DNA of 64,000 nt. Source: Antedon bifida (Eukaryota > Echinodermata > Crinoidea > Comatulida > Antedonidae). The translations under genes were made by a program, and so were the position numbers. Location of the stretch: NCBI GenBank assembly GCA_963402885.1, contig OY727093.1, positions 31,495,409 through 31,559,408 of the forward strand. Direction: 5' to 3'. Positions 16,101 to 62,942 of this stretch are shown one piece after another. The first letter of the stretch is position 1, and every line of letters starts with the position of its first letter. The notes under the pieces were generated by a model. The model saw nothing but the letters and a program-made list of their open reading frames with translations, ran no database searches and had not been told where the DNA came from.

Positions 16101-16588
16101 ATGACATGCTCCGAACAAACCAGCAGCCACAGGTTGACCGATTTAATCCTAAAACGAGTACAGACTTAGCTGATGGTAAACCCACGTCCACACAGTACGT
16201 CATTACGCCATTTTCTCATCTGGAGAGTGACACACCAGAGAATTATGAGGAGCCTTCTGAATGTTACGAAACAGTTGGAGACTTTAACCAACTCGGTGAT
16301 ACATCATATGCAATACCAATACAACAACAAAACCAACCCAGTGATACGTCGTATGCGATACCAATGCAACAACAAAAGTCGCCATTAACGCCAAATGACT
16401 ACAGCAAACTCAACAGAGACATTTGTCCGAATGCAGATGAAGACAGTGGCGGTGATTACGGAAAGTTATTGAAAGTTGAAGAATTTAATGAAAGCGACGA
16501 GGAATACGACACACTTGGAGTAGTTAAACACAAACGTACAAACAATAGTAGTAATGATACATACAATGTTTTGAAAGTTGAACTTTAA
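13165..16588 (+). CDS. EGF-repeat single-pass receptor with ITAM-like tail (MEGF/Draper type)
   Basis: Exons are 13165..13259, 14186..14232, 14531..14978, 15128..15234, 15411..15599 and 15924..16588, giving 516 aa. A signal peptide (Met1 to about 24) is followed by a CCSGW motif like the end of an EMI domain. Then come several cysteine-dense laminin/MEGF-type EGF repeats (about 48-232), a transmembrane helix near 249-271, a KRRQRR stop-transfer and a 245-aa acidic tail. Family members such as Draper and MEGF10 bind apoptotic cells or debris and signal engulfment through tail tyrosines. Here YxxL motifs sit at Tyr355, 455, 474, 490 and 509. Tyr474 and Tyr490 are spaced YxxL-x12-YxxL, within the ITAM rule. 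The tail also has a DTSYAIP(I/M)QQQ repeat. The protein is much shorter than MEGF10 and lacks a full EMI domain. The 14531 acceptor has a weak pyrimidine tract. An AATAAA lies at 17168. Confidence 0.8.
13260..14185 (+). other. First intron of the receptor gene
   Basis: The 926-bp intron runs from GTAAGT to TTTTAG. I looked for exons that could complete an EMI domain and saw none with convincing splice sites. No named repeats are recognised. Confidence 0.6.
15686..15836 (-). mobile_element. Dispersed short repeat, second copy
   Basis: It is the reverse complement of the element at 11134-11297, sharing TTAAAAACAGACGAGGCAAA and GCTGGCTAC..GCCCT. It sits in the intron before the last receptor exon. 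Confidence 0.65.
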
Positions 16589-37800: not shown

Positions 37801-40800
37801 CCCATCAAGGTTTTATGGTAGTATAATTGAGCTTGTAGAAGTGTAGAGTAAATAGTATAAAATTGTTTATATCAAAAATAATGTAGTCTCTATGAATCTG
37901 AACTTTATTTGCATGACAAAGTTCAGATTCATAGTCAAATTGTTTGATTAGATTTATATCTAATAATAATCTCTCTGTGTTAGACAAAAATGCTTGATAA
38001 TAAGCAGAGCAATATAAATAAATAAATGAATGATTCAATTCTTATAATATAGGTTTTGAATAAGACTTATGACCATCGTCAACGCCTGCTGGTGGAGACC
38101 GCCACCACTCTACAAGTTTGGTTCATCAAAGTTAACAAAATGAAAGCCATATATCACACTCTTAACCTGTTCAACTTGGATGTAACCCAGAAGTGTTTGA
38201 TCGCCGAATGCTGGTGTCCTGTCGATGATTTGGAGACCATTCAGCGAGCATTGAGACATGGAACGGTCAGTTTTGAATAAATAAATAAAATATAGTTTAC
38301 CTTTTAAATAATGCATTCCACTACTGTATCCAAAATGTGGTATATGTAGTCCTATTCTAGTGTGATTTTCCATTTGGATATATGGAATTTTTATTGTGAA
38401 ATAAAGTGATCAATTAATCAATAAAGCTGTCCAATTTACAACATTTCTTGAAAACCCATAAATATTAAACCACTATATTCCTCAGTAACTAGGCTGAGTC
38501 TAGAATAAACTCTGAGATGTTAGCTACAGTGCAACCTAAATTGCAGTTAGAATGCTTTTCTGTTTAATATAATTTTTTTGGTCTTTTCCAATTGTGTCAA
38601 AGTTCCTTGTTTATATTCATTTTTTTCTGTATTGAAATTAAAAAAATAAAGTTAAATTGAATTGAATTAGAATAAAAGCATGAGGTCTAAATTCTCAATA
38701 ATATTTTTCTACATTCTTAAGCTCTGTGTACACTGTCAAACTGACAAAAAAAGTGTGAAGTGCCCAAGTACGTAGTGATGTGCCCAAATATGACAGTGGT
38801 ATGACATGATATATGGGCAAATCACATTTTTGTTGTCACAATGTTTGATAGTGTAGACAGAGCTTTAAATGGATTTATGAATATTTCAATGTATAGGAGA
38901 GTAGTGGAGCAAGTGTGCCATCTATTCTGAATCGTGTACAGTCACCACTTCAGCCACCTACATGCAACAAGACAAACAAGTTTACAGCCGTATTCCAAGA
39001 CATCATTGATGCCTATGGTGTCGCTAGTTATAGAGAGGTCAACCCAGGTCAGCAAACCATTTTTAAATCATTCATAATGCAGTTAAAAATCTCCAAATAC
39101 TAGACACCTTTGGCCTAATATGGCTGGTTTTCCGGAAAGTCTGGTATTCGGAATGTGTTTTTAATGTTAAAATTGAATTGGGGACCTTTTGGGATAGTCG
39201 ACTGTATAGTACAAATCTAACCTAATAATAATAATAATGTTCTGTTCTTATATATGTTTTTTAACCATGGAAAAGAATACCTTTTTTTTTTGTAATATAA
39301 TATTTAACCATATGGCTCTTTTTTTCTAGCTCCCTACGCAATTATTACTTTTCCATTTCTTTTTGCTGTGATGTTCGGCGATGCTGGACATGGGCTAATC
39401 ATGGCGTTGTTCGGTCTTTTCTTGGTGGTCAAAGAACGCAAACTTATTCAAGCCTATGGTAACGACGAGGTAATAATAATTCTTCTTAATAATAATATTC
39501 TTTATACATTGACGTATTAAAAATATTTATAAAATAATTGTTAAATTATCTGGTCTGATCTAAAGCTCTGTCTATGCTATCAAACTTCATGTGACAAAAA
39601 AATGCGATGTGTCCATATATGGAAACGATGATGTCATATCACTACCATATTTGGGCACATCACACTAGTTTTTGTCACACTAGTTTGATAGTGTAGAAGG
39701 CTAAAATTATGTGTTATCCTTAGCGGTATTCGTACTATATATTGATGATAATGTTTGTATTATTTTTCTAGGTGTTTGGCATCATTCTCGGAGGGCGTTA
39801 CATCATTTTTCTAATGGGCATGTTTTCTATCTACACTGGCTTGATATACAATGATGTGTTTTCCAAATCACTCAAATTCTTTGATTCCAGTTGGAATGTG
39901 TCCGGTATGGATTTTTCAGATGAGGATTTGATGAAAGCTGATGCTTCCTATTTTTTGGATCCATGTAACACTACTAACGGCGTGCCATACCCGTTTGGAA
40001 TGGACCCTGTGAGTTAAGCTCTGTCCACACTATCAAACTTTATGTGACAAAAAAATGTGATGTGCCCATATATGGACATGATGATGTCATATCACTACCA
40101 TGTTTGGGCATATCACTACCATATTTGGGTACATCACATTTTTTTGTCACATAAAGTTTGATAGTGTAGAGCTTTAGTCTTTTACTTACTTATTTTGTAA
40201 TCTAGATATAATGTTTGCATTTGTATTTTTTGTCTAGAGTTTAAGACATGCCCCTATTGATAGTTATCTCTCCCCAGTGCAACATTTTTATGTTTCAAAG
40301 AAATAAATAAATTTAGGAATTCATGAAAATGTCAAAATTCATACCCCTCCTCTTGTTTATGACTGTGGGCAAGATGCTGCCCTCTCATTGTGTTCTTCAC
40401 AAACAAAATATTCAGTACACTTTTCAAAGGCGGAGTATCATCTCTTGGTGTGGTGGTCATGGGAGGTGCTACATGGGTCTGCTGTGTCGTGGGTCTATAG
40501 AGATCATATTTAATGTAATTGTTGATAAGGTGACCGCACATACCATGGAGGTAAACATTCCTCCATGCACATACTAAATATAGAGGATTATTATTATTAG
40601 ATTTGGCAAGTATCTGGAAACAAGATAAGTTGGCTGAATTCTTACAAGATGAAGATGTCCATTATAGTGGGTATATCTCAGATGGTGTTTGGCGTACTCT
40701 TGAGTGTCTTTAACTATGTGTAAGTACTGCCATGTGTAATAATAATAATGTTCAATTTATATAGAGCAAAATGCAGGGTGCCTTTAAGCACTGAACAATC

Positions 40801-43800
40801 AACAGAAAATGTAAAAAGCACAACAAATAATTAATGACGACATTGCAAATTAAAAAGTTGAATTTGACGAGTGATTCGGCAATGATATGATAATGATATT
40901 GCTGTATAAATGAAAAATAGGGTTATTATTCTGAATCATAGAATCCAACCCCCAACCCCCATACTACTTGTCTCATCAAATTCTTTTCATTTTCAGACAT
41001 TTTAAGAAGTATTCCAGCCTGTTGTTTGATTTCATCCCACAAATCATTTTCCTGCTGTTCATCTTCGGCTACATGGTTGTCCTAATTGTCATAAAATGGT
41101 TCAAATATTCGGCTGAAAATTCAATGGAGGCACCTAGTCTTATTATTACCATTATCAATATGTTTTTACTAACAAAAGATGACGACCTCATGATGTACTC
41201 AAACCAGGTAAAGGGTTTATTATTTACATTATTTATTTTGGCAATTAATTTAATTGTTTTACTTATCCTACTATTGTTACCGTTATTAATGTTATTAACA
41301 TTCAATTGAATTTTTATTTCCAATATTTTGTATTTGTCTTACAGTCGGAAATTTCTTTCAACAAATATCAAATTGTGTTTTAACTTTACTTTAACTATTT
41401 TATTTGCATAGCCCTGGCGTCTCAATGAGTCGAGGAAAGAAAATGAACTCAATTTTTAAAAAAAGCAATTTTTTTAACATTTCATTACTGTATAATCCCA
41501 TAATCAAGTGTTGTCCCATAATCAAGTATAATCCCATAATCAAGTATAATCCCATAACCAAGTATAACCGAGTGTAATCCTATAATCGTGTATCCCATAA
41601 CCAAGTATAACCGAGTGTAATCCTATAACCGTGTATCCCATAACCGTGTATCCCATAACCAAGTATAACCGAGTGTAATCCTATAACCGTGTATCCCATA
41701 ACCAAGTATAACCGAGTGTAATCCTATAACCGTGTATCCCATAACCGTGTATCCCATAACCAAGTTTAATCCCATAACCAAGTTTAATCCCATAACCAAG
41801 TATATTCCCACCCATAATTTGGGGCTAAATTCAGACACAAGCCTTGAAATTCATTGATATGTGCAATCCAAGTACAAACTTAAGCCCAAATTTTTCCAAA
41901 ATACCATACCCGGGCCCCTGGGACTACACTCGGGTCCTATACAGTATTATTACTTTTTTTGTTTTACTTTTATTACTACAACTGATGTATGTTAAACTGG
42001 GTATTGACTATACTTCATATGTATATCATTTTAACACAATTCTGCAACATAATTTAGTATGAAGTACAAGTAGCCCTGGTTGTTATTGCCGTATTATGTA
42101 TCCCATGGATGTTACTTGCAAGACCAGTCTCGCAATTTATCGCCCATCGTGGCCGGATGCGGCAACGCTTATCTACTGTGAGTATCAGCGTAAGTTTTGC
42201 CTTTGCGGCTGCTGCTTTTTTTCGTTTCCTGCATCTAACATTTCATCACCAGTAGAAAAAAAAACAAACAACGCACCAAAGCTCCAGACAACTTTCGTCA
42301 GGATGCTTGTGAGAAGCTTGTCAATTTGTAACCAAGATTAAATTCAAGCTTGGGTTATGAAATTACCTGCTTTTAACAGCAAATAAGCTGTGCTTTGGCT
42401 ATCAAGAAATTAGAAATACCCTGCCTAGAAAAAAATAGAAATTGTGTTGTTTGTGTAGAGCAATTCACTATGCAATTTCAATCCAATTAAAACACCTTTT
42501 ACTAGATGCATGTTGTTACAGTACTAATATTAGCATAATGCTACAAGTATTAACAAATTTACTTGTGTTTTTATGATTATCATTGTTTATTGTTTTTAAT
42601 TTTATCCTTTTTTAACAGTTTAAAATTTTAACGTATAAATAGTAGATACATTGGTCCACTGACCATTATATTTTCTGTTTTAATTTTATCAAGTAAATAA
42701 AACAAATAAATTATTTTTGATAAAAACACTTTTAGCAGACATTTACTAGTGATTTGAAAAATTGATTCAATTTTGGGTATGGGGTTATGGTTACAATATT
42801 TGACAAGTTTCTCAAATTTTTGTTTGTAGTCAACGCACACTCATGTAAGTAAACAAGAAATGGTATAATAAAACAATTTTGATTTTATTATACCATTTGT
42901 AATACTTTGTTATTGTAATATTAGGCACCATGTAAATATAATATAAAATGTCCTTTTCTACATCAGATATACAAAAACATAGATTATTGATAACAAAGAT
43001 TCAATAAAATCTGGAATGCCTAATATTAAATAATGTAATAATATTTGAGTTTCATTTTTTATTCAAATATTTTGTTTTTGATATTAAACATTTGTTTAAT
43101 GCAACATTTTGGTTCTTTTTTAATTTTCTTTAACTGTTTTAATTTTGTTATCTTTTTTTCATTTAATGCAACATTTTTGTTCCATTTTAATTTTCTTTAA
43201 CTGTTGTTATTAAAAAAAAATTAATTTAATGCAACATTTTTGTTCTATTTTAATTTTTTGTTATCTTTTTTGTAAATTCTTATTTCTTCTTAGATAAGTT
43301 TAGTACATAAAAAAGGTACAGAAAAGAATAGTTAATGTTTTTGTACTTATTCCTTTATTTCACTCGTCAGCACTCACTTTTATCAATTTTACTCATCTCA
43401 TCACAACATAGGTGGGGTGGAGCCCCTAGTATATTATAGTAGTAGTTCCTTCACATCTCTTACACCCCGGAATTCAAAAATTACTTCTCATTTAAAAGAC
43501 AATTGTAAGTGTTATACACCACATATATTATACAGCTTATAGGCTATTTTATATGTCAAAACAGGGTGTGTAACAATTACATTTTCATATAAACTTTTAA
43601 TACCAAGGAAGTAATAATTTCACTCTTACCTGGTCATACACAACCTATAGAAAGATATATTGTATCATGTCAAAGTTCAAAGTTGAAATCATGCAATCAT
43701 TGTAAAAACATGTGAAAAGCATCGCAATATTCATCATGCAAATACATTTGATTACAATTGATGTAACACACAATGCATACATTGAACATACAAGTTGTCA

Positions 43801-45960
43801 CTTTCATACATTGGCAAAAAGCTTATAAAAATAAATCACAATAAATCAAGTACCAAAATAGAGTGCCATCAATACCCTATATGTCCGAGTATTATCCCAT
43901 GCTTGAGTAATAGTTCCACCCCCTAATCTAAATATAGACACAAGAGTGGTAAAATTTACTGTTTAATGCCACCACTTATTGTTATGTTGCAAAATTCCAT
44001 ACCCAATGCATAAAATATGATAATATGATTTAAAAAGCACACATATCCACAAAGTGCTCAAGGCATATACTGCAGTATACTGTCATGTACAGTAATTGTT
44101 ATATAACCGAGTATAATCTCATGCTTGATTAATAGTCCCACCCCTTAATCTAAATATAGACACAAGAGAGGTCAAATTTACTGTTAAAATCCTACCTCAT
44201 AATTTCCGCCAAATTTCGTACCCAATACATACTATACTTTGTCATATACAATAATTGTTTTATAAATATAATAATACTGATAATAAATGTGATTTTTAGT
44301 GTCGGGGACGTGATGAAGATGCAGAAATTATAATTAATGATGATGCGTTACAGGCTAATCATGAGGAGTTGGGAGATGTTTTAAATGGATCTTTGAAAGC
44401 CGAAGAAAGCGTAAGGTTTTTGTTTTAATATACTATTTATGTCCCCCTGAAAACATGAAAAATGAAAATTTATTAAATCAGACTTTGAATAGATTATTTT
44501 GTAGTTTTAATAAAGTTAATCACTTAAAAAAATGTTTTTACTTATATAATGACAAAATAAATGATAAATTCAACCAAAAACCCATTGGCTGGCAGCCAAT
44601 TTGACTATTTTTTGGTTTTTGGTTTAAATGATATTTTTTCAGGTAAATACATTTTTTTTAGATTCAACTTTCACCTAATCAGCAATACATAGCCTACTGA
44701 GGTGTTCATTGAGATTTTTCATACGATTATGTAATGGCTTTGGCTTGCCTGATTCCTAAATCTAAGATAATAGAGATTTTAATCCACGGATCACGATAGT
44801 ACCGTCTTGTAGAAGTAGAATAGATAAACAAAGTTTAAAGTTTGTTTTCTACATTTATTATTTTCAGTTTGAATTTGGAGAAGCTTTAATCTATCAAGGA
44901 ATTCACACCATTGAGTACTGTCTAGGCTGCATCTCTCACACTGCATCCTACCTACGTCTATGGGCTCTCAGCCTTGCCCATGCTGGTAAGTTTTTAAGGT
45001 TATCCCAGAGTCTCGCAGTACAGAGCACATCATGGCTCTCAACCAGTGATGTAGCCACAAGAAATAAAGTAGTCCTGTATTCGCAAGAAAAGGGAACAAT
45101 TTCTGTTCAAGCCACTGGGTTGTCAAAATCCTCTGTGAAACAGTGGTGGTGTTTGGTGGTTTGAAACCTTACCAAAAGTACTGGTGACTACGGCCCTGTC
45201 AACACATCGAATAAAGAAAACTTAAAAAGAAACCTACTAACACTGTTTTTCGTTTTGTATTTTTTAGAGCTTTCTGAGGTGCTATGGACCATGGTAATGC
45301 AACAGGGGCTGGGGCAGAACACGTTGTTTGGCAGTGTTATGATATTTGGTGTGTTTGCATTCTGGGCTATTATGACTGTCGCTATTCTACTGATGATGGA
45401 GGCACTGTCTGCCTTCCTGCATACTTTACGTTTGCATTGGTAAGTTTTGCTTGCCTTTGATCTGAGGAGGCCAATTCTGACTAGAATTACGCAGACCACC
45501 ACAAACCATAGCCATAATATCGACATAGGTTCAAGGCACAGGATTCTCAGGATATAAACCCCTTTTGGGGATTAAGTGGGCTATCTCTGTTACTATGTAA
45601 ATGATTGTGTATTTGGTTTGTTATCATCTGTGTTCTGCCTGGATGGTATTGAATGAAATAAAATCGAACTCCTCAACCATAATTCTGATGGTAGACTTGT
45701 GCATATTTTAGAAGAGTTTTACCCAGGGCCGTAAAGTGATGGCTGAGGGAGTCAACCATGATGATTGGATTCGTCTGCTTGATATGAGGTTAAATACAAA
45801 ACATTTAATGAAGTTGTTGTAATGAAAGATTGCCATGTTTAGATAATTTTTGTATCTCTTTTTTTATAGGGTTGAATTCCAGAGTAAGTTTTACAAGGGT
45901 GAGGGCCATCCATTTAAGCCATTTTCATTCCAAGATCTAGCAGCTGAGCAACAGGAGTAG
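34827..45960 (+). CDS. ATP6V0A-like: V-type H+-ATPase V0 subunit a, paralogue B, 17 coding exons
   Basis: Exons: 34827-35022, 35179-35276, 35596-35724, 36437-36519, 37043-37169, 37557-37733, 38053-38265, 38897-39047, 39330-39469, 39772-40008, 40601-40719, 40997-41207, 42058-42177, 44300-44410, 44868-44985, 45268-45439, 45870-45960. They sum to 2493 nt, 830 aa. It has the same architecture and presumed role as paralogue A, with the coiled-coil N-terminal half and the membrane half with [12 protein letters not shown] and its essential arginine. Differences from A: exons 1+2 and 7+8 are each fused, the exon before the SLAHA block is split by an extra intron, the AELHHQQ block is replaced, and there is only one version of the 15a/15b exon. 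The EKEV...REL segment is well diverged, but the first 117 nt are almost identical to A. FGDAGHG replaces the more usual FGD(F/L)GHG. An AATAAA lies at 46263. Confidence 0.95.
35317..35462. mobile_element. MITE family P, copy 10
   Basis: TAAGCCCTGTCTACACTATC ... GATAGTGTGGACAGAGCTTT, in reverse sense to most copies. It starts about 40 bases after a donor in paralogue B. Confidence 0.9.
35781..35921. mobile_element. MITE family P, copy 11, left end missing
   Basis: The inner GCCCAAATATGGTAGTGATA phrase occurs three times in tandem, followed by a normal right half ending AGTGTAGACAGAGCTTT. Confidence 0.85.
36644..36928. mobile_element. MITE family P, copy 12, with expanded core
   Basis: Both termini are normal, but the core phrase has grown into about eight 21-bp units (GCCCAAATAAGGTAGTGATAG) over 36695-36860. 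The middle units are identical. The central half of the palindrome has been lost. Intron of paralogue B. Confidence 0.9.
37278..37416. mobile_element. Short inverted-repeat element, about 139 bp
   Basis: TTTCGACTTGTTGTCAGCAA and ATCTTCATCTGGCA at the left are mirrored at the right by TGCCAAATGAAGAT and TTGTTGACAACAAGTGGAAA. There is no ORF. Intron of paralogue B. Confidence 0.7.
38718..38867. mobile_element. MITE family P, copy 13
   Basis: TAAGCTCTGTGTACACTGTC ... GATAGTGTAGACAGAGCTTT. Worn copy in an intron of paralogue B, ending about 30 bases before the next exon. Confidence 0.85.
39097..39210. mobile_element. Truncated relative of the CAGTCAACTC MITE
   Basis: It shares GGTATTCGGAATGTGTTTTT, GGGACCTTTTGG and the terminus GTCGACTGTA (inverted) with 20167-20358. 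The outer left end is degraded. Confidence 0.55.
39561..39703. mobile_element. MITE family P, copy 14
   Basis: TAAAGCTCTGTCTATGCTAT ... GATAGTGTAGAAGGCTAAA. Intron of paralogue B. Confidence 0.85.
40015..40176. mobile_element. MITE family P, copy 15, abutting a 5' splice site
   Basis: It begins TAAGCTCTGTCCACACTATC directly after the donor hexamer GTGAGT at 40009-40014 and ends AGTGTAGAGCTTTAG. Confidence 0.9.
40738..40800 (-). mobile_element. SINE/LINE 3'-tail fragment
   Basis: AATAATAATAATGTTCAATT followed by TATATAGAGC is the reverse of the (ATT)n plus GCxxTATATAA tail seen at 48375 and 50500. Only the tail end is recognisable. Confidence 0.45.
41490..41812. repeat. Minisatellite, units of about 12-43 bp
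   Basis: The phrases CCCATAACCAAGTATAACCG, AGTGTAATCCTATAACC and GTGTATCCCATAACC recur in ordered blocks. A 43-bp higher-order unit is repeated about three times and is flanked by simpler CCCATAA(T/C)CAAGT units. Intron of paralogue B. Confidence 0.85.
42178..44299 (+). other. Long intron of V-ATPase paralogue B
   Basis: It is AT-rich. A segment near 43880-44000 is repeated in diverged form near 44105-44230 (TAATCTAAATATAGACACAA in both). I searched for a second version of the upstream exon, as in paralogue A, and found none. Confidence 0.6.
45470..45690 (+). mobile_element. Decayed SINE, family 2
   Basis: ACCATAGCCATAATATCGAC followed by ATAGGTTCAAGGCAC and a GGATATAAACC phrase resembles 9722-10031. 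The head is degraded, so the limits are rough. Confidence 0.4.
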
Positions 45961-47596: not shown

Positions 47597-47602
47597 TTTA
47601 TT
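47597..47602 (-). terminator. Polyadenylation signal AATAAA (KANSL2)
   Basis: Canonical hexamer on the minus strand about 75 bases past the stop codon. Inferred from position. Confidence 0.5.
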
Positions 47603-47675: not shown

Positions 47676-50600
47676 TTAACTTGTTATTTCTTCTTTAACA
47701 GACTTGATCTCGCTCTTATCTCGACTCTTATTCCTCTCGGAACTTTTCTTCTTTTTCTTTGATTTTCGTTTACTGCTTCCGTACGGATTAATGCATCCTT
47801 TGCACTTGCACCAATGAGCGCACGGCTCCTGAGCATGATAGCATTTACATCGACTTGTGTATTTGCCTTTCTTGTAGGAGCAGCTTTCAGGATTGTCCTG
47901 GTTCTGACCACATTTACATATGTACTTCTTGACCGGTGGAAGCACTTTGACGGACGGCATAGATGATGACGACACTTCATCACTTGAATCAGTTGAATCA
48001 GAATCGTCTACGCTCATTGCCTCCTGCCGTTTCCACATCTCTTCAAATTGTTGCTGTTTTAGGAGGAAACAAAACGTGATCATTTTGTATTTTATCATTA
48101 TCAATGTGAATTTGAAAGATTTTAACATATCATATTTGAATTTGTTTTTTTATTTATTACTAGGTAACCTCTTCAGTCAAAGACTGGTCTCCCAGAGGGC
48201 CCAGTGTTATGATCAGTGGCTGTGTGTTTTTATTGAGGGTATAGGTTCAAACAAAACTACGCTGATTACTGGCTGCAACCTTATGGGAGTATGTTTCCAG
48301 ACGTGTTTGATCCAAAACATAACCGGAGTAATAATGTGAAGCACTTAGAGGTTTTGCGCATTAAGATCAACGTATTATTATTATAAATAATAATAATAAT
48401 AATAGTTCATCCTTATATAGCGCATATAAGCAAGCTCTCAATGCACTGAACATTATTACCCCAGTCATTTCCTGATCAAACACCTATGGAAACATACTCC
48501 CATATATGCAGCTAGTAATCAGCGCAAAGTTGTGTCTTGATCTAACCGGGTTCCCAATTATACACCTGGGTTGAGAGAGGCAAACGTAAGTAAAGTATCT
48601 TGCCTAAGGATACAAGCAATGCGGCGAGAGTTGGATTCGAACCTCGGTCTAACGATCAGTAGTCGAACGTCCAACACACAGCGCCACACGCCCTCACAAT
48701 TATTAAATAGCATGTAGATGAAAATCATAAATTATGCCTCAGTTTCCACCATACAATATACCCACAGCATCCACACAGCTTAGGCCCCTAAAACTTACCT
48801 TAATCAATTAAATTTTAATTGGATAATTAGTATATAAACACATTTATCTACAAACTTTCTCAACTCTACAAAAATATAAGTAATGTTAACTTACATCTTT
48901 TTGTTCTTCATCTGTTTCAGTCTCCTCATCATCATATTCTTTTATTTTACTAATAGTGTGCGGCTTTTTAGTGGTCTTCCCCTCAGAAGGTGGTTGTTCC
49001 GACTTACTGCTTGCTGCTTCAGGCTGGGCTGACTTCTGTCCGTAATCATGATCGTCCATGACAAATTTCGGCTTAGCCTTAATTTGGAAATAAACAGTGT
49101 ACAATTATTAGTACTTTTACATTGAATAATTTTTTTCAAACCTATTGAACTCTGTCTACACTATCAAACTAGTTAGACAAAAAAAGTGCTCAAATATGGT
49201 AGTGATATGACATCATCATGTTCATATATATGGGCACATCACATTTTGTTGTCACATAAAGTTTGATAGTGTAGACAAGGCTTTATACCATGTGACAATC
49301 AAATACTGCTTGGTACTGATATTTTTAAAATTTCACTTACCTTATCATATTTAGCGATGACAGGAAGGTTACCCTGACTATGCATTACTGGCATTAATGC
49401 ATGGAAGATGCACGCAATCTCGCCAGACGCTAGCAAGACTGGCCTATCACAGCTCCCATCATCCCCCTCGCATTTCCCATAAAGCACTTGGTGACGGTCT
49501 TCAAGAATATCTAATTGTACTTGTTAAAGAAAGATTTCTAGAGAAAAGTTGCTTTTTTAATTGTTTACATTACATTACAATATTATTTATAACTTACCGA
49601 AACACAGTTTATGTGAAAATTTTCTTGTTAATTCTGGAAGATTTGATTGATATTTTCTTTGCTGTTTTGGAATATTTGTATTTGTTATCTAAACAGTAAA
49701 GATGAGAACATTACAGATTTCTACCTACTTTGTAGTGGAAGAGTCCAAATCTAGGACAATGGTTTAATCTTAATTAGAGTCAACTTTTATGTTTACTTTT
49801 TCGTCTTGATTGTTTAGACATTATTTCAGCATTGTTACTTTGGTTTCAAGTTTTTCTTTAAATTTAAAGTAAATTAAATTTATACACAGAAGGATACGTT
49901 GTTGACAATACGCGATAGCTGGTAAGCGGTTGTTACAACAGTTATTCCCGTCAGCTTCGTATTTACATACCATCAGTGGCTGTTCAGGTTTGACGCCTTC
50001 TCGCATCGCTGTCACCTGTATTCGTCTCTTCTTCGATTTGTCCGCAAGCAAGGCTTCGCATCCTCTGCGCTTGCGGTAACGCTTCATAGCTTGAAGTTTC
50101 TTTAACTTTTTCTTCTCCCTAGGGTCAGTGACCTTACCAATATTCAAACCTAAATGGTCAAGGAATCAGAACACTACTACATCACTATATAATAAAATAA
50201 TTATCTTTTCTGTATTACAAATACAAATACATTGACATTTTTGAGGACACTAACCTTTCACATCAATGAATAAGAATATTTTCAGGTTTTAATGTATCTC
50301 TGTAATCATGTTTCTTTTATGATCCAAAGTTTTAAAGTAGGTCTAAGATATTATTTGCTCGCTTATTGATATACTAATATTGGAATGTAAATTGTTTTAA
50401 CTCTTATGCTAGGCAGTGTATAAAAATTATTTAAATATATGTTTCATATTCTGATTATTACTATGCTAGCTATGTATTGTTAAGCGCTTTGAACAGTTTT
50501 ATTGAAAAGGCGCTATATAAATGTATTATTATTATTATTATTAAATACTATAATACAATACACAGCATATATTACAAACACAATACAATTGTAGTGTAAA

Positions 50601-52520
50601 CATTTAAAACTAAGCATTTACCAATCGTCTGCTCCTCAATGCTGCGTTCAGCTAAGTACTTGCGGCGTTTTTCTCGCATGACATGCTGGAGTCGTTTGAA
50701 CTGGTTTATATAAAGCGACTGCAGTCGAATCAGTTTCTCTTTTGTCGTCAAGGCAACCTCTTCAGCTGTGTACACTCCTGCATGCCTGCAACAAATATCA
50801 AACCATTTATAACATTATTAAGCACAAACATTGTTGTTGTTTACAAGGGTAAAAATGATGTTTAGTAAACAATAACAAATTTACCTGAATATATGATACT
50901 GTAATTCATTCATTCATCAGTCGAAAATCATCATCATGGGTGGTCAGAATGGACACATTCTGTGTTTGTAAGGTGGCTTATTTAATTTATCTGGCAGATG
51001 ATGGGTCATTACCTTTAAGGGTCAAGGGTATGACTGGTATGTAAATAAATAGTAATAATATGGTTTGGAATTGTAATGACTAAAGCTCTGTCTACACTAT
51101 CAAACTAGTTTGACTAAAAAATGATGTGCCCAAATATGGTAGTGATGTGACATCATCATGTCACATGGATCATGTCACATTGTTTTGTCACATAAAGTTT
51201 GATAGTGTAAACAGAGCTTAATGATGACTTACTTGAGCAAATCCTCTTGCTCACTGTCCACACTTTCAGCATCACTCTCATTGTCACCTCTCCATGATTG
51301 GTCCACAAGTAGTGGTTCTACATCACTGCTGCTGTCACTACCATATTCTACCAAAAGAAGCATTGTTGGGTGCCATCTGTTGATTTATTATCTACTGTGT
51401 GGGTGATCTTCTATTTTTGTTTTATTTCATACGCATCCAACAGCAAGTAACTCACCAATTACATGATGGATAGACTATTTTATAATTTATAATGCTTATA
51501 AACTCATTTGAGGCTCAGGGAGTGGAGTTGAAAGAGTTGTGAGTTACAACCCTGGTACTAGGTCAGGATTGAACCCTGGACATTGGGAATGAAAGGCAAG
51601 CATGTTAACCACCAAGCTACAGCTTCATTCCAAATCTAGAACGTTGTTTGACTTGAATTTATTTTAAATAAACATAAAAAGATTGGATTAAAGTGAATTT
51701 AATTCAATACCTAATACTTTAGCGGCTTCTGATGGCAGGCTGTCAGGGAGCTGTTTAGAGGAGCTAGCTCTGTACGGATCAAGATCGTCAAGGATCGTCT
51801 CGGTGCGATTACTCGGACGTCTCTTTAAAATATTTTTATGACGAAGCATGGCGGTTTTCCTTGAGTGTTCAACACAAAATCTGGAGGGAGGAAAACATAG
51901 CATTTGCATTGAAATGATTACAAATTTATTGTTTAAATATTAGTAAATTATTTACTTAGAAAAGCTTATCACACCTAACTTACTTAGTCAAGTTACTAGA
52001 GTTTTGAAATTTTAAATTGACTTCAAAAAGTATGAACAGTTCATCAAACAGAAAGATGAGAGAAAGCCAATGTTAAAATCATCTACACTATCAAACTAGT
52101 TTGACAAAAAGTGCGATGTGCCTAAATACGGTAGTGATATGCCCAAATATGGTAGTGATATGACATCATAAAGTCCATATATGAGCACATCAAATTTGTT
52201 TGTCACATAAAGTTTGATAGTGCAGACAGAACTTGCTAAGTAGGTATGTATGTGGTACTTGCAATAATGTTTTGACACACAAACAATTCATACCCATCTT
52301 TTTTGTCTGATTTAGGTGCAGGATGCGGACAGCGTTTCCCATTCTTTGTAGATATATAATTGCATTGTTTAAATGGTGCATTCTTATCTTCAAGAATGTG
52401 TCGAATACAGTACTCATAGCCATCAAGTCGATTCTGCATACATATACGATGCGAATAGCTGCAAAACAAACTCTCAGAACGCAATGTCCGTCTACTGCTA
52501 GCATTGGATCGCCCTTTCAT
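47676..52520 (-). CDS. KANSL2: KANSL2-like NSL complex subunit with C-terminal CXC domain, 8 coding exons
   Basis: KANSL2 is a subunit of the nuclear NSL histone acetyltransferase complex built around MOF/KAT8. Exons (complement): 52294-52520, 51711-51880, 51233-51347, 50622-50785, 49898-50149, 49341-49510, 48895-49077, 47676-48053; 1659 nt, 552 aa. Two zf-C3Hc3H modules are present. The first (about residues 19-80) includes [20 protein letters not shown], nearly as in human. The second (about 290-350) reads [18 protein letters not shown]. Between them is the signature [20 protein letters not shown] and a basic helix. After a low-complexity acidic exon (61 codons), the last exon holds an SD-rich stretch and nine cysteines: 473, 475, 485, 496, 498, 505, 509, 511 and 514. 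These form CxC..C..CxCY..C..CxCxxC, followed by a Lys-rich tail. That part matches MSL2-type CXC domains and is absent from human KANSL2 as I know it. All junction phases agree. A 5' UTR acceptor lies just above the ATG (TTTTTTCAG at about 52528). Confidence 0.88.
48375..48697 (-). mobile_element. tRNA-derived SINE, family 3
   Basis: Read on the minus strand, the head GAGGGCGTGTGGCGCTGTGT and box B-like GAGGTTCGAATCCAACTC are tRNA-like. The tail ends in TATATAAGGATGAACTATTA and an ATT run. It lies in the last KANSL2 intron. Confidence 0.8.
49147..49286. mobile_element. MITE family P, copy 18
   Basis: GAACTCTGTCTACACTATCA ... GATAGTGTAGACAAGGCTTT. KANSL2 intron. Confidence 0.88.
50480..50542 (+). 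mobile_element. SINE/LINE 3'-tail fragment
   Basis: AAGCGCTTTGAACAG, then GGCGCTATATAAATG and an ATT run. This is a common animal retroposon 3' end. Only the tail is present. KANSL2 intron. Confidence 0.6.
51081..51220. mobile_element. MITE family P, copy 19, close to a 5' splice site
   Basis: TAAAGCTCTGTCTACACTAT ... GATAGTGTAAACAGAGCTTA. It ends about 11 bases from the donor GT of KANSL2 exon 51233-51347. Confidence 0.9.
51520..51640 (-). mobile_element. tRNA-derived SINE, family 1, second copy
   Basis: The reverse complement reads TGTAGCTTGGTGGTTAACAT ... AGGGTTCAATCCTGAC ... AACTCACAACTCTTTCAACT, matching 5911-6035. KANSL2 intron. Confidence 0.78.
52081..52234. mobile_element. MITE family P, copy 20
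   Basis: ATCTACACTATCAAACTAGT ... GATAGTGCAGACAGAACTT, with the core phrase doubled. First coding intron of KANSL2. Confidence 0.88.
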
Positions 52521-53638
52521 TTTAAACTGAAAAAAATGTAAACATATTTCTTGAAATAAAATACAATTAGTATTACAGTAGCTGATAAAGAGAGTAGCAT
52601 TAATTAATCATATGCATTGGTCATAATGGGTTATCATGCGTATGCTCATGAAACATGACCAATGGCTTAACATCCTATCTGAAGGATCATGATGATGCAA
52701 TGAAATTAGAACAGCTGAGTGATAGAGGCAACAAATTACATTTGTTTGTTCATACAATTAAATTACACAAAATAGGTATATGGTAGTATTTTAATTTTAG
52801 GTCTACTCATAACCTATATTTAGTAGTCACGCCTAGACCTCTCTCTAACTGTCTGTATTCTAGGTCACACCATAGAGATATTATAGTGAACCTCTATGCA
52901 CACCAATACTTAGCTAGGCTGACTACACAATAAAAAGCTTTTTTCACACGTACTGCTGGTGGTCACACAGGTTCAACCACGAGACTCCAACACACAATTC
53001 AGCAGTCCTTTCAGATCAAAGACCACATAAATTTAACCTTAGATTTTTAGTATATAATTTAGTATGTATATAAAACTAGGATTTGATCATGTTTAAATTC
53101 GTCATTAATGTTTCATGGCTTGCAGTTTACATTATTAATGAAAGAAAATATAGCAGCCCGCCCGCACATTTCATGAACGAAAGAAGTAAAAACGTGCCCT
53201 CTGCCAGCAACGAATCACTCGACGAAAGAAAGCAGTCGAGGGAGGAACTTAACAGTTCTCTAGAAAAATACAGAGTTTTCGGACATTAATCTTCAGATTT
53301 TGTTGATATTTATATTGCTAACTCGGCCTCAACAAATTGATACAATGTTTACCTGCAAAATTGATTTGAAAACACTTACGGATTTTTATCGAGGACGGAG
53401 AAAATTATTGCTCTACTTGGCGGATTTTGTTACAAGATTTCAGGATGGTTAGGCGCCGACCTTTCTGGTTCAGGAACAACAAAGATAGCTTTTGTTGTGC
53501 AATCAAGCATTGCAAGCTATCCAATTGCGTCATGCAGAAGCTGTTATTTCAAGAAAAGCTATCAGTAACCTTTGACCCTATTTGTAAAATCAAAACGAGC
53601 ATGCGTATACAGCTTGTCTGTTCGTCGTTCCTGGTCTC
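52521..53638. promoter_or_regulatory. Head-to-head promoter region, KANSL2 / cyclin T
   Basis: The two start codons are 1.1 kb apart and point outward. The KANSL2 5' UTR acceptor lies near 52528, so its first exon is further right. No TATA box or CpG island is obvious. Short frames here look like chance. Confidence 0.45.
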
Positions 53639-56600
53639 ATGGCGGTACGGTCCGAGAATTTCACAGAAAATTGGTATTATTCTCGGGAACAAATCGAAAA
53701 TTCTCCATCCCGCAAGTATGGAGTGGACCAGGAAAAAGAGTTGTCCTACCGTCAACAAGCTGCCAACCTTATTCAAGATATGGGACAACGTCTTACAGTG
53801 TATCTTTTTCATGATTCGGATGGCGTCTTTTCTTCTCCGCCATGTTGACGGGGAATTTTTATTTTGTAGTCATTTTTACTCATTAAATCATGTTATTTTT
53901 CTTATAAAAATAAGTAATGTAGGGTCTACAGTTTTTGAAATATAATCATTTATATAGTTTGTAAAATATTATATATTTTTAATCGCAAAATTTACCGTAT
54001 TTTGAATGATGATTGAATGGGGTTCAAGTAGCGTGCGTGTGATGGATGGTTAGCCGCCAAATATCGCAAATGAAGTGATCGCGGTGGGCCTAGCTATCTT
54101 AACTTTCTAATAAGTAGGTCACAGTGTACTGTTATCATATTTTATAATATTATGTACTTTATATTTTTGTAGATATTGTCTTTTTAAATAGAAATTATTG
54201 CATAATAAACATGAAAATCATATCATTATCACAAAGTTCATCAGAGAGGTCACACAGCCAGTTTTCCTAGAAAGTGATGAGTCATACTTTGAATATACCT
54301 ACAGTACTGTCTGTAGCAAGACTAACTTTTTATATTTTAAAGCTTGTGTACAGTAATTCTAGTTAAATTGATTGATTTATGAAATATACATGAATAATAT
54401 GTTAACATATTACATTGAAATCATTTAAATTTAATTATTTTGTTTGTCATGTCAAATAATATTAAATATTTGGTTCATGGATGGGAAATAGTTATTTTAT
54501 ATTATTATTATACAATACAGTGGTTCCCGTCATCTACCCAAAATTTGGCCCTCAAATTTTTCAAGAAATTAAATTACGGAGAATGAGATTGACAGTACAG
54601 TAAATATAAATATGATGATGTCATACTTATTTATTTATTTCAACAATATTTTACGAGGGTTGTCCATCCAGCCGAAGCTGATCATTAAGGACCCTCACAA
54701 AAATACATCATGACATTACAAGACATAAACATGTAACAATAAAAATTTTATTGAAATAAATATAATTTATAAAGATAAAAGAAACAAACAAAAACTATTT
54801 AGAATCATAAATTAAATATAAAATAAACATGAATAGTAATTTGTTAATAACATAATACATTGAAATCATTTAAATTTAATTATTTTGTTTGTCATGTCAG
54901 TTTGAATCATGGTGGGAAATATGTTATTCATATTAATATATACGATTTCAAAAAAGCCCTAGTCTTGTCATATCAATGAAAGTATTTTCCTTAATGCTGT
55001 ATCACAGTAACCAACTATGTATCAATACTGCTATAGTGTACATGCACAGGTTTTACATGGTCCATTCCTTCACAAAGTTTCATCGCAATGTAAGTCATGA
55101 GCTCTGTCTACACTATCAAACTAGTTTTACAAAAATAGTGTGATGTGCCCAAATATGGTAGTGATATGACATCATGTCCATATATGAGCACATCACTTTT
55201 TTTTTCACATAAACTTTGATGTGTAGACAGAGATTTATTTTTTTGATGACTGTATAAATAATTACTTTTATTTTAGTCTGTGTTTTTACTATTTTATAAT
55301 TGCTGTGCTGTTGTATATTTTATCTGGTCTTCCTATTCATAGTGTAATTAACTTTATAAAAATCTATTAAAAAAAAAACCCGATTTTTTTTTTTAAAGAA
55401 GTTTGATGAGAGGCAATTATTTTGTACTGTAAGCACCTGTGCTCAAAGACCATAACACTTCTAGACTTATTGTGACCACCATCTACCTGTATAAATATTT
55501 AATGATTTATTAAGAAAATAATATGTATTATTTGTGGAAACTAATATTAATAAACAACAATAGCTAGCAGACATTAGTCCTGTTTACTAATATTTGAATG
55601 TTTTTCCTTTTTTTTTTAGGTAATCGCGCCAGCCTGTTTATTTTTAGGAGCAAAAGTAGAAGAGCAACCCCGTAAATTAGAACATGTAGTTAGAGTAGCG
55701 TATGCTTGTTTAAATCGTGAATCGCAGCAACAACTAAACCCCAAAACTGAGGTACGTTCTAAATTACATAATCATCTTGTAACTTATGTTAGAAGGCTTA
55801 AATTTATAACAAAATAATTGTCACTTTCTTAATGATATTTTATTCTATTTTTATATATCTGTATTTTTATGATTTTTTTTACATTACATACTGTATATTT
55901 TTATATAACTTTTTAACTTATTCTAAAATGTTTTTATGCTGTTTGTTGCCTTGAGGAAGACAAATTTCAGATTATTTTTTTTTTTCAATATAGTTATCTT
56001 GAATCGTGATATTTTTGAAATTTAAATATTTGAAGCTTTTAACAACCATATTATGTCTATTTACAGCTGTATTCGCAGTTAGCACAAGAACTTGTAATAA
56101 ATGAAAGCATTATACTACAGACATTAGGTAAGTGTGACATGTGTATTTGCTGCTTGCCTTTTGACTATGCATTGTCCTCATATTTTAGTGACAAATTAAT
56201 GGAATAATTGCTGTATTTGTTCCCTATTGTATGTAAATTCTTCCTACTTTTGTTTCTGACCAATCAGAAGATTTGGTACTAACATATTTGTTATCTTTTG
56301 TTAGGTTTTGAAAATGCTGTATTTGTTCCCTATTGAATGTAAATTCTTTCTCCTCTGTTTCTGACCAATCAGAAGATTCAGTATCATAACTAACATGTTT
56401 GTTATCTTTTGTTAGGTTTTGAAATTGCTGTATTTGTACCCTATTTTGTACCTGTTTTCTGACCAATCAGAAGATTCGGTACTAACATTTTCTTTATCTT
56501 TTGTTAGGTTTTGAAATTGCTGTTGACCATCCTCATACCCATGTTGTTAAGTGTACTCAATTAATACGAGGTAAGTGGATAATTAATAAATGGTTAATTG

Positions 56601-59600
56601 GCAAACAATGTCCCAAAAAAAATACATTCAATACACTCATTTCCAATATTGCCCTTTTTATAATAAAAACCAAAGATATGTTTCAATCTGTTAGAAAACC
56701 AATCATGCATAACAGGCATACATTTATTTGAATATTTTATAAGGATATATTGTCCTTTTGCGATTGTTATTAAATATTGATATGTTTAGAATCGTCTACA
56801 GTAGAAATTCTCAATATTACAATTTGTACCGACCGGTCAATATCAAAATAAGATAATGAAGCTGTAGATAATCTAATGTTTTGATTTGGATTACGTTGAT
56901 AAAATGTTACATACAGCAATGAAACCTAGTTTAAATTAACTTTCGGCACAAATTGCATTAAGAATTGAGGCTTTCTACTGTATGTATAAGGATGTTACAT
57001 GCATGACAATTTACGGACTTTGTAGCAGTCAATTGTGTTGAGTGTTGTTTATTCTCCTTGAGGCTAATTTGCTAATAAGTTACTTTTACTTCACTTCCTT
57101 TGGTGACGTTGAAACCTGATTGGCTGACTTACTCGTTGCTGCCTCTTCTCTGTCGGCTTGTCTGTGTGACCACTTCCAGCCAGCAAGGATTTATCTCAGA
57201 CCTCGTACTTCATGGCGACCAACAGGTTGGCTGCCCTTTTGTCTTGTCTCTCAATTGGAAAACTCAAAGCCATGGCATTATTTGCTGATCAAATTTTGTT
57301 AATTTTGGTAACATATATTACTATTATAATTGTCATTGATAAAACAATACGTGTCATATAAAGTACATTTTGCCTTGGTTTACAGTCTTCCTACTAACTG
57401 ACTACATATTTAAACTGGTTGTAATTTTTTGTGCACATCATTAAATGGACCGTTGGTGGTTAATATCAAAACTTGCAAAAGACAATAACCATGCACTGCA
57501 GTATTTACTGGTGGCATTATAAGTAACTAATAACACCTATGGTTAACTAATGATGATGCAACAAAAAGTTACAGCTAGTCAATGTCAGTATTAAATATGA
57601 GGACTAGACATAGAGGTCAAAGGTTAGACTCGTAACAGAGATCACAGAGGTGGTGACCTTAACGGTCATGAGCTGTACGGGTAAGAAAAAAAAAACACAA
57701 ATGGTTCAATAATCTATTAAAATAGGCTAAGGCGAGAATGCCATCAAACTAATTTATTATCTTCTTTATTTTTATTAGAATAACTGCAGAATTTATCTAA
57801 AATCCAGTTTTTGTAATAAAAACCTTGATGAAATTGTTGGAGAAATATCCAGAGACGAAGATTTAAGATTTTTTTATTATTATGCAATTATGATTCTTAG
57901 TGAATAGAGTTTAACATTTAAATTTAATTTTAGGTTTGTAGTATACCCTGTACAGTGTTAAAGAAAGATAAATATCTTCATATTTAATGTATAAAACCTG
58001 GAAGTTCTGTAAATTATTTTTAAATTGTTAAAAAAAATTCAATGCTTAACAAGGTATACTACAAACAATAACATAATTTTAAATTTTGTAAAGAAAGTTT
58101 TTTTTTTAATTTTTACCACAAGTAAACAAGTTTGTTATGTTTATATATAGGATGCTGTGTTATCATATCTATAAACATACAAGATCATAGTTTTAAGTTA
58201 GATGTAATATAAGTTCCTGCAATATGTTATTAACATTAATGAAATGTTATTTGTAATTGTTTGTAATCTAGTCTTCATCTGACGACGTTTTGCCTTCGTT
58301 ATAAACCAACCGCTGTGGCATGTGCTTGTATACATTTGTCTGCAAAATGGTCCAAGATGCAGGTAACTTTTTTATTATATAATGTAATGTAAAGAACATA
58401 TTTGAGCTTTACCTTTGTGGTGTCATAAACCAATCTTGATCTCGTGACCTAATCTCCACTGCCTAAGTAATACACTTTATACGAGTAAAATTCTAGGCCT
58501 TTTTTAAAGTGACAAACTGTATAGAACCTATTGTCACTCCCTGATTTCAGTCACAATGTTACCTTCTCTTACTTAATAAAATGTTGTATGTTTATTTCAG
58601 ATACCCAAATCAAGTGATGGAAAAAATTTCTGGGAGTATGTGGATAGAAATATAACAGTATCAGTTTTAGACGGTAAATTTGTCATCTTTTGTAGTTCCT
58701 GCAATTATTTCATTTACCATAACATGGTTCATACACAATATGCATTTAAATGTTTTGTTTGTTTATTCGACCAGCATAAAATCAATACAATATAAATATA
58801 TTTATATATTTTTTTAAAAGAGATGAAAAAATGCTGGGCAGGGGCAGCTATAACTCAACGAGTCGCCTACCCCTCATATAAATGTTAACAATTTGGCAAT
58901 AAAATTGAATTTAAATTAAATGTATTGTACTTACTTAGTAGAATAGAACCCCTTCGTTAATCATTTTCCTAAAATTGGGGTTCTACTGGACATATTATGT
59001 AACCAGGTGTATTATATGCAGATAAGTGCATGGCCTGTTAATTCCCAATTAGAATTAATATTTGATTACCCTATTTTATTGACTCGTTAAGTGCTAGATT
59101 TTAATTAAAAGTAATTGCATTGTGTATATTGTAATCTTTTCTCTTTTTTTTACAGATATAACTAGGGAATTTATAAAAATTATAGAAAATAGTCCAAATA
59201 GGTTAAAACGGAAGCTGACATTAAAGGTAATTTATTTATTTATCTCCGTCAAAAGGTTAGGCTCATCTAAGTTTCTACACCATAGTGTCCATGGCATTCA
59301 GCACTTGGTGGATATGTGCGCTGTATATATTTTTATTATCTCTCTTTAACCTTGAATCAATTCCAACACCATATCTTTCCACTTAACTGTTAACTATTTT
59401 GTATTGAACATACTCGCTATTAATGTTTACATTTTACAATTGGTTTTATTGTTTAACAGGCGCAAGCTGAAACGGATTCAAAATCAAAAGTAAATGAAAA
59501 TGCATCAACCAGTAGCAGTAGTACTTCAATATTTGATGTCGATCCTGGAAGCTCTATACAAACAGACGCTTTGATGCTGGGTATGAGTGATCAAACGGAT

Positions 59601-62600
59601 GGAAAAAACGTACCTCCTGTAGTTCCTTCAAAATCGACCTTAAATCTGAATGAATATAAGAGGATGAAAGAAAAAGAAGTGAAATGTGAAAAGGAAAAAG
59701 AAAGATCAAGAATAAGAGAAGCCCAAAAACTTGAAGAGCAAAAGCGTTTAAACCACAAACGATTAATGGAGCAAGAAAAACATAAAGAAAGATTGGAGCA
59801 GGAAAAACATAAAGAAAGTAATAGTCGAATGCAAAATGCTGCTAAACACAGTGAAAGCAGGTCGCATGAGATGCAGGTAAAATCACAAGAGGGTCACAGT
59901 AGCAGTAACAAGTCAATTACTGATCAAGTGAAACACGGAGATCATAAATGGTCTAGTTTGCATACTGACAACCCTGAAAAAGTACTTGATAGGTCCCAAG
60001 GACATGGAGATGCACGTCGAACGCATGACCGACCACGTTCCCATCATGTGCAAAATCCACATGCCCCACCTCATAGCGACAGAACGCATAGTGTTAAACC
60101 AAGCAGTAAAGATGTCCGACCACCAGATCATAAAAAAGATATTCGTAATCGTCACCATCACCAAGAGAAGAGACCAAATGAGAATCACAGACATCAAAGG
60201 CCAGTAGAAGAGCCCCGGTCACATTCTGACCAGCGGCACAGAACTGACCATAGACATCCTGATGGAAAAGTGGCCATACCTAAACATAAACATTTACATG
60301 AAAAACCAGTAGACCAAAAATTGCCAGAATTTGAGCAGAAAGAAACATTGTCTATACAAGATAAAACAAAACAAGATTATATACTTATGAAACCAGAAAG
60401 CCTAGTTGAAATGGATATACTTGGAGCGCTAAAAGAGGAGTGTTCTAGTCCATATATACAAAGCTCACAAAAACCAAGTCCTGTACCAACAACGCAATTG
60501 GATTATAAGGCTGCCATAGCAAAAGATTCAAGAGAGTGGTTTAAGCAGGAAAGAGTTCCTGACCACCAGTCGCTAATTCAAGAGTCGATGCAAGGAATAA
60601 GTAAACAAGAATCGGCAACTCAACCAATAGTTTCCAAAGACCGTAGGAAAAAGTCTGCAGAGCACTTAACGGAAGCAAAAACATCAAAGGGGAAACCTGA
60701 TGTTAATGTTAAGTCTGAACATGCTCATGTAAAGTCTGAGCACACTCATGTTAAGTCTGAGCACACTCATGTTAAGTCTGAACATGTTCCTATGAAGTCT
60801 GAGCATGCTCATGTTAAGTCTGAGCATGTTATATCGAAACCCGATTCGCCTAGGATGAAAAAAGAATCAGTAAAGTTGAATATGGATCCTTTACAAGCTG
60901 AAAAGGCAGTCAAAGTGAGGAGAGATTTTCAACAAGAATCTATGTTATTGAAGCCTGAACATTCTGTTCCAACAGTGAAGTCTAGTCCAGTCAAAGTTAA
61001 AAAAGAAGTCAACCATGAACCTATGAAATTGAAGTCTGAGCATCATGCCAGCCCTGTCAAAAATCGAAAAGGAGTTCTTCAAAGTCCAAACAAAACAAAA
61101 AAACGTGTTTCTTCCAGGCCAATTAAAATGGCAGAAACCAGTACATTGGATCTCTCCAGTATCGGCATCAGCAGTATATTGACTCACACGGAGTTGTCGA
61201 TTGGAAAAGAACAAAACAGGGAACAGGCCAAAACTACTCCAAATCCAACAACCACAAAAACAAAAGAGGTGAAGAAAGAAACTGCTGTTAAATTAGATTT
61301 TAATTACTCAAAACCAGTCCTTCAAAAAGGAAAAAGCGAACCAGTTGCACCTCCGAAGAAGCGCATCAAGAACATGATGCAAACTCAATCTCAGCCATCT
61401 AATTTCGATGCTGAACACTTAAGTGTGCCACATCATTCATCTCAACATGCGACGCAGCGTACCACTCAAAAAGTACTACCTGAACAAATGCCAGCAACAA
61501 CGGATATGTCAAAATTGAATTTAATAACGGCAACGCATTCAATTCAGCCACAGAAGACTCAAGCTTTTGTCCAACATGTGCAGCAACCAGCTCGGCAACA
61601 TAAAACCGAATCGGCTTTACCGCAGGTGACGCAACATCAAGCAGTTCATCAACAAGTACCTCAACCAATGTCTACCTTCAGTAATCCAGTGGAACCTTGG
61701 TCTGACATGATGCACCCTGCAGAGATCCTAGATGGGTCAGACTTCATGAATGATATAAAGCAGGACATGTCACAACTGGATGACTTCTCTACTGGAAATT
61801 TATTTGATTTTCCAAGTAGTGAAGCTACAAATCCTGTTGGTATAAATGATTCTTCTAATATACTAGAACAGCAACTGACTGCTTTGACACCAACAGTAGA
61901 CGCTTCACATTTAACAAAGGACAAATCTGTTAAAAAATCAGAAGCAAGAGTGAAAAGAAAAGAAACAAGCCCAGTAAAGCACAGTAATAAACAACACGCA
62001 AGCCCAGTAAAACAAACTAAACAAAAATCGATTCCTAAAGATGTCCATCCTGCTGAAATATTGGGTGATATTCCTGTTAAGAAATCAAAACCTGTTAAAA
62101 AAGAATTAGCGCCACAAACGAACCAGCTAGATTTTGATCTTCATCCAGCTGAATTGTTAGAGTCTGTTTCCATGCAGGCTTCTTCACAACCAAAAGAACC
62201 TTCAGAAGATGGAGAATTAGTTGGCGACGACTCTCTTGTACATCCGACAGAAATCGAGAATCCTGCTCTTTCACGCGTAAGAAATGAAGAACTGGTTACT
62301 TTAAAGACCTCTGAACCAAAAGAACGAGATCATGAACGCAGATCTTCAGAGCATAGGCGGCATTCAAAACACAAGCATTCTAGTGAAAAGAAAAAGAAAG
62401 ATAAAGATAGGGATCGACACAGAAGTAAAGATAGGTCATCAAGTCGCAGCAAGGAAGTCCACCACTCGGAAAGTAAAGAACATTCTAATGGTACTGAGGC
62501 TGGACCGTCTGTACATGATGAACAGCCGACCAGCGTACTAACAACATCTGGAGGAATCAAACTTAAGATTAAATTTGGCAACTCTTTTGACAAACAGGCT

Positions 62601-62942
62601 TCACCATCTGCAGGTAGCTCACCTCTCAGCATGAAAATTGACCTCAAAAAGATCCATTCGTCAAAACATGATCGTGATGGTAAACATGAGAAGGAACGGA
62701 AAAAGGATAAGAGTTCGCGACATCATAAACACAAGTCCCATAAGAGGTCTCACAGTCCTCTGGAGAGCTCTGCCGTGGATCCTCCAGCATCACCGGCGAA
62801 GCGACGAGCTACAAACAGCAGCCATCATAATTCACTGCTTAGTTTACCAATGCCTCCAGCAGATCCAAAAAAGAAAAGTAAGCATTCCTTAAGTAACAGC
62901 AATGGCGACTCACCTGCAAGTAATGTGTACAATTTTAATTGA
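53639..62942 (+). CDS. CCNT-like: Cyclin T (P-TEFb subunit), 10 exons, unusually long tail
   Basis: Cyclin T partners CDK9 in P-TEFb, which releases paused RNA polymerase II. Exons: 53639-53799, 55008-55089, 55620-55751, 56067-56127, 56508-56570, 57180-57225, 58272-58362, 58601-58673, 59156-59226, 59460-62942; 4263 nt, 1420 aa. Residues 1-260 are the two cyclin boxes: [19 protein letters not shown] and [59 protein letters not shown], then NSPNRLKRK. The Tat-binding cysteine region of human CCNT1 is not conserved. The tail (261-1420) comes almost wholly from one 3.5-kb exon. It has a Lys/Glu coiled-coil start, a His-rich segment, seven-residue KSEHxHV repeats, four HPAE/HPTE motifs, and a C-terminal [20 protein letters not shown] block like other cyclin Ts. 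Human CCNT1/2 are about 730 aa. Small exons 2 and 6 were found by matching the expected cyclin helices. Confidence 0.93.
55099..55235. mobile_element. MITE family P, copy 21, close to a 5' splice site
   Basis: GAGCTCTGTCTACACTATCA ... TTTGATGTGTAGACAGAG. It starts about 9 bases after the donor GT (55090) of cyclin T exon 2. Confidence 0.88.
56205..56507 (+). repeat. Three tandem copies of a cyclin T 3' splice site region
   Basis: About 92-111 bp is repeated upstream of exon 56508-56570. Each unit includes CTGACCAATCAGAAGATT(C/T), TTATCTTTTGTTAG (varying slightly) and GGTTTTGAAA(T/A)TGCTGT. The two upstream AG acceptors fall at 56303-56304 and 56414-56415, ahead of the true one at 56506-56507. 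Confidence 0.9.
57226..58271 (+). other. Cyclin T intron between exons 6 and 7
   Basis: About 1 kb of AT-rich DNA from GTTGGC to ATCTAG. I see nothing further in it apart from simple A/T runs. Confidence 0.6.
60712..60835 (+). repeat. In-frame 21-bp repeat in the cyclin T tail
   Basis: The seven-residue unit (KSEHxHV) repeats six times, around residues 678-719. DNA units are close to identical (AAGTCTGAGCACACTCATGT), so the array is young or homogenised. It adds to the His-rich character of the tail. Confidence 0.9.

Follow-up and report, generated by a model that had tools for sequence, protein, structure and literature searches.

A KANSL2-like protein of the crinoid Antedon bifida with a predicted C-terminal CXC domain of divergent MSL2 type

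The stretch of Antedon bifida DNA analyzed here (the window, 64 kb in length) carries a KANSL2-like gene on the minus strand (47676-52520), together with several other genes. An ADAR-type RNA editing gene on the minus strand (2493-3089 and 7885-9408) codes for two dsRNA-binding motifs and an adenosine deaminase domain in two pieces. An EGF-repeat receptor-like gene occupies 14485-16588 on the plus strand, with an EGF_laminin match on 14485-14979; a nearby open stretch (15899-16588), which may be its C-terminal exon, holds many tyrosine motifs, YETV and YAIP among them. Two genes for the 116-kDa subunit a of the V-ATPase lie in pieces at 19314-25892 (minus) and 37497-45443 (plus), apparently divergent and head-to-head, PF01496 being matched on one open stretch of each gene and the remaining pieces being assigned by eye. 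Adjoining the KANSL2-like gene in divergent orientation is a Cyclin T-like gene (53080-62942, plus), which was named from sequence motifs and for which the two pieces searched gave no Pfam match at 0.001. KANSL2 and CCNT1 presumably adjoin in human too.

The KANSL2-like gene has eight coding exons separated by GT-AG introns, with phases in agreement at all seven junctions (7/7); joined by splice phase, they give a protein of 552 amino acids. The model was assembled by hand, and single exon borders may be off. Coding exon 1 (52294-52520; this and all following exons on the minus strand) holds the start ATG and most of a first zf-C3Hc3H domain (PF13891, E 5.4e-18 for the exon), which ends in exon 2 (51711-51880, placed by phase) and covers residues 20-82 of the joined protein. 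Exons 3 (51233-51347) and 4 (50622-50785) were placed by phase and by alignment to a provisional human KANSL2 sequence. The first half of a second zf-C3Hc3H domain probably lies in exon 5 (49898-50149), as judged from phase and from PF13891 in the joined protein; exon 5 searched alone against Pfam gave no PF13891 match. The second half is in exon 6 (49341-49510; PF13891 E 0.0037 for the exon alone, under the cut-off). Exon 7 (48895-49077), placed by splice phase, codes for an acidic linker and ends at the donor GAT/gtaagt. The terminal coding exon 8 (47676-48053), supported by frame, phase, Pfam match and codon score, comprises an acidic Ser-rich linker, a predicted CXC domain, a Lys-rich tail and the stop codon. 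An AATAAA polyadenylation-type signal lies at 47597-47602 on the same strand, 74 bases past the end of the stop codon, and a second AATAAA downstream of exon 8 begins at 47150.

KANSL2 is a scaffold protein of the NSL complex, one of two complexes of the MOF acetyltransferase, while MSL2 belongs to the other. We base the name KANSL2 on a Pfam domain and on the provisional human sequence. Two PF13891 stretches were found in the 552-residue protein (E 1.2e-27), and two such domains are common to it and to KANSL2/NSL2 (DGT1). Residues 16-350 are identical to human KANSL2 at 165 of 346 positions (48%; of KANSL2 and INO80D, the comparison covered KANSL2), a value that counts as a lead, since the human sequence was provisional and not a database record. 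The tail of this human sequence, in contrast, does not align with the last third of the Antedon protein, and alignment gave no significant match between the human sequence and the CXC region, in agreement with an initial annotation of this DNA, according to which human KANSL2 has no such domain. In human KANSL2, L411 and V413 mediate binding to WDR5 (PMC6607013); read by eye, the part of the 552-residue protein after the second zinc domain shows no obvious L-x-V motif with acidic surroundings.

Splice phase predicts that exon 8 is the last exon of this gene. Intron 7 runs for 841 bases, with repeats, from the phase 0 donor after 48895 (GAT/gtaagt) to the acceptor ctcctaaaacag/CAA, and the frame of exon 8, stop codon included, is open and agrees in phase with exon 7. 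Exon 8 could instead belong to a small gene of its own, or to an unspliced transcript, lying downstream of KANSL2, with the KANSL2 protein ending near exon 7. In favor of such an arrangement are the open frame, which extends from exon 8 back into the intron and contains in-frame ATGs (ORF 48149-47676), the length and repeats of the intron, and the lack of such a C-terminus in the provisional human KANSL2 sequence. However, donor and acceptor are both good and share the same phase, read-through of exon 7 into the intron adds only two codons before a stop, the acidic, Ser-rich composition runs on across the exon 7/8 junction, and a poly(A) signal lies just downstream of exon 8. We therefore consider a separate gene improbable and treat exon 8 as the last in-frame exon of the KANSL2-like gene; the same assignment in the initial annotation is supported by the fitting splice phase and by the two zf-C3Hc3H domains of the joined protein.

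The core of the predicted domain (47793-47918, minus; residues 473-514, then N516) was delimited by the PF16682 match at residues 469-520, a pattern scan and the cysteine spacing. Its nine cysteines (C473, C475, C485, C496, C498, C505, C509, C511 and C514) follow the order C1xC2..C3..C4xC5..C6..C7xC8xxC9 with a spacing of 1-9-10-1-6-3-1-2, and Cys-9 is followed by I-N-P and then by the Lys-rich tail, so that both the cysteine order and the tail described in the initial annotation are confirmed. Across all six frames of the whole 64 kb, a loose nine-cysteine CXC pattern occurs once, in exon 8. The MSL2-CXC profile (PF16682) matched an isolated 60-residue piece at 29.1 bits (E 1.1e-6), which passes the Pfam cut-off of 26.7 bits, whereas exon 8 (26.1 bits, E 9.7e-6) and the full 552-residue protein (26.0 bits, E 1.1e-5) narrowly missed it.

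Cysteine-rich sequence may produce such matches by chance, and the exon could be a chance translation or a metallothionein-like stretch. Shuffles of the 60-residue piece with the cysteines held fixed do give weak matches by themselves, to TCR in 2/10 (E 3.4 and 9.6) and to two metallothionein families in 1/10 (E 0.062 and 1.3). The MSL2-CXC match, however, was lost on shuffling, appearing in 0/10 cysteine-fixed shuffles at E up to 10 and in 1/10 full shuffles (E 9.2), which suggests a similarity beyond cysteine content or spacing; the shuffle lists are incomplete at the weak end, as HMMER filters discard most matches above E ~0.1. No metallothionein family was among the Pfam matches of the real sequence. 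Moreover, the codon score of exon 8 in frame (0.333 bits per codon, stop excluded; exons 1-7 and the frame at 59457-62939 served for training) exceeded the scores of all 3000 plus-strand stretches of 375 nt drawn at random from 1-38 kb (maximum 0.229). On the shuffles and the codon score, we rejected a chance origin of the exon 8 cysteines; to chance or a metallothionein-like stretch taken together we assign a very small probability.

Among solved structures, exon 8 matched best to 2cqe, a zinc-finger protein that is unrelated (E 0.34), and second to the fly MSL2 CXC (E 7.5), neither being significant, and the full protein gave no match at E up to 1. A single-sequence AlphaFold2 model was uninformative (mean pLDDT 52.6). 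Viral, bacterial and archaeal contigs yielded no relatives, as expected of collections without animals.

Among CXC families, the predicted domain is closer in profile score to MSL2-CXC than to TCR (PF03638). For the 60-residue piece, TCR reached 14.3 bits (E 0.05) against a cut-off of 23.5, and a tesmin-type CXC identity was rejected on this score. In LIN54, the DNA-reading tyrosine presumably sits before Cys-4. The TCR domains of LIN54/tesmin are in tandem, whereas the KANSL2-like protein has one copy with an Arg before Cys-4. The two profiles belong to one CXC superfamily (Pfam clan CL0809), according to PMC11467057. PMC4974476 describes a tandem arrangement of the LIN54 CXC domains, which read DNA with tyrosines and have a C-terminal helix, and contrasts the tyrosines used by LIN54 in the minor groove with the arginine inserted there by MSL2.

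The predicted domain shares with MSL2 (PF16682) the nine-cysteine order, an Asn after Cys-9, an Arg before Cys-4, an aromatic residue after Cys-5, a location close to the C-terminus and a charged tail. PMC3447885 lists the fly MSL2 cysteines (525, 527, 539, 544, 546, 553, 556, 558 and 561), six highly conserved residues (R526, G528, T538, R543, Y547 and N563) and a conserved cysteine spacing. Matched by their place with respect to the cysteines, the equivalents of these six residues in exon 8 are K474, G476, S484, R495, Y499 and N516, four being identical and two conservative. We take R543 to be the minor-groove arginine of MSL2. The spacing, on the other hand, departs from the conserved one: fly MSL2 has 1-11-4-1-6-2-1-2, so that both gaps around Cys-3 differ (Cys-2 to Cys-3 and Cys-3 to Cys-4 are 9 and 10 in exon 8, compared to 11 and 4 in the fly and to 12 and 4 in Antedon MSL2), and Cys-6 to Cys-7 differs by one. 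We therefore term the domain divergent MSL2-type rather than canonical. The original assignment to an MSL2-type CXC thus holds as far as the nearer profile is concerned (E 1.1e-6 for MSL2-CXC vs 0.05 for TCR), but the full-protein score is borderline and the spacing around Cys-2, Cys-3 and Cys-4 deviates.

Antedon has an MSL2 of its own. A six-frame scan of the whole genome with PF16682 (315.6 Mb, 27 contigs, E<=0.001) gave one match, on another contig; exon 8 was not among the matches at this threshold, which fits its lower score. The matched locus codes for a 413-residue protein with a RING domain (zf-RING_10, E 1.3e-29) and a CXC domain (43.5 bits), which identifies it as an MSL2 that is present and separate from the KANSL2-like gene. 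A displaced MSL2 as the explanation of exon 8 was rejected, as MSL2 sits elsewhere in the genome. The Pfam search of the 552-residue protein found no RING, so that, unlike MSL2, the KANSL2-like protein does not combine RING with CXC. Local alignment of the exon 8 CXC with that of Antedon MSL2 gave a score of 92, which none of 1000 cysteine-fixed shuffles reached (maximum 84); with fly MSL2 the score was 77, a value reached by 5 of 1000 such shuffles (maximum 83).

Taking these data together, we think it likely that the gene is the KANSL2 orthologue, that its last exon codes for a genuine, if divergent, CXC domain of the MSL2 type, and that this domain would act as follows. Judging from the order of the nine cysteines and from the Pfam match, they would bind three zinc ions as a single Zn3Cys9 cluster. 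This cluster would turn a basic face, with the Arg just before Cys-4, to the DNA minor groove, as in MSL2; the acidic Ser-rich linker would join it to the KANSL2 scaffold, and the Lys-rich tail would contribute charge. In an Antedon NSL complex of which the protein may be a member, such a DNA contact could help to keep KANSL2 at promoters, and with it the complex and the MOF acetyltransferase. Through its C-terminal domain, KANSL2 would probably provide the NSL complex with one more contact to DNA. In MSL2, the CXC domain is a monomer with three zinc ions, and substitution of Cys544 and Cys546 impairs DNA binding and male viability, as reported in PMC3447885; on the other hand, PMC8321682 reports the domain to be dispensable for dosage compensation in vivo. 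Because these accounts of its importance differ, the KANSL2 domain could be an auxiliary contact.

A genuine CXC-type zinc cluster in KANSL2 could also serve protein contacts or structure rather than DNA reading. Such roles are attributed to the related pre-SET motifs of methyltransferases. One fold is common to these motifs and the MSL2 CXC (PMC3447885), the unusual loop between Cys-3 and Cys-4 could change the DNA face, and an acidic linker precedes the domain. Nevertheless, the domain remains basic in character through the Arg before Cys-4, the Lys that separates Cys-1 from Cys-2, and the Lys-rich tail, and MSL2-CXC is the best Pfam match of the domain, with no pre-SET family among its matches. 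We regard a purely protein-contacting or structural role as rather unlikely, though less so than a separate gene, and favor DNA contact.

If it is true that KANSL2 carries a DNA reader, this would be a direct route parallel to that of MSL2, and the evolution of targeting modules, shared or partitioned between the two MOF complexes, would become a question. A broader proposal, which we put forward tentatively and at slightly less than even chances, is that in Antedon MSL (through MSL2) and NSL (through KANSL2) both have a C-terminal DNA-reading CXC domain, the NSL complex thereby having its own MSL2-like minor-groove reader, which would either go back to ancestral animals and have disappeared in vertebrates or have arisen in this lineage. 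Should the domain occur in KANSL2 of many invertebrates, vertebrates would be the exception. In full-text literature consisting mostly of papers outside subscription, we found no paper on KANSL2 together with 'CXC domain', on KANSL2 with 'zf-C3Hc3H', or on NSL2 with CXC and MSL2. In the accessible parts of papers naming KANSL2, MSL2 and CXC together, CXC stands for chemokine names, and the term is absent from the available text of an NSL-complex review (PMC6607013). KANSL2 also did not occur in any of 15 papers listed for echinoderms and invertebrates. It should be noted that the combination of KANSL2 with CXC may already be annotated in databases.

A short inverted-repeat element end, CACTATCAAACTTTATGTGAC, occurs at 18 places in the window with <=3 mismatches, compared to a mean of 0.00 in 100 shuffles. 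Copies sit in the introns of the KANSL2-like gene, examples among the 18 places being 49251-49271, 51187-51207 and 52202-52222. By eye, similar ends are also seen beside the genome's MSL2 on the other contig.
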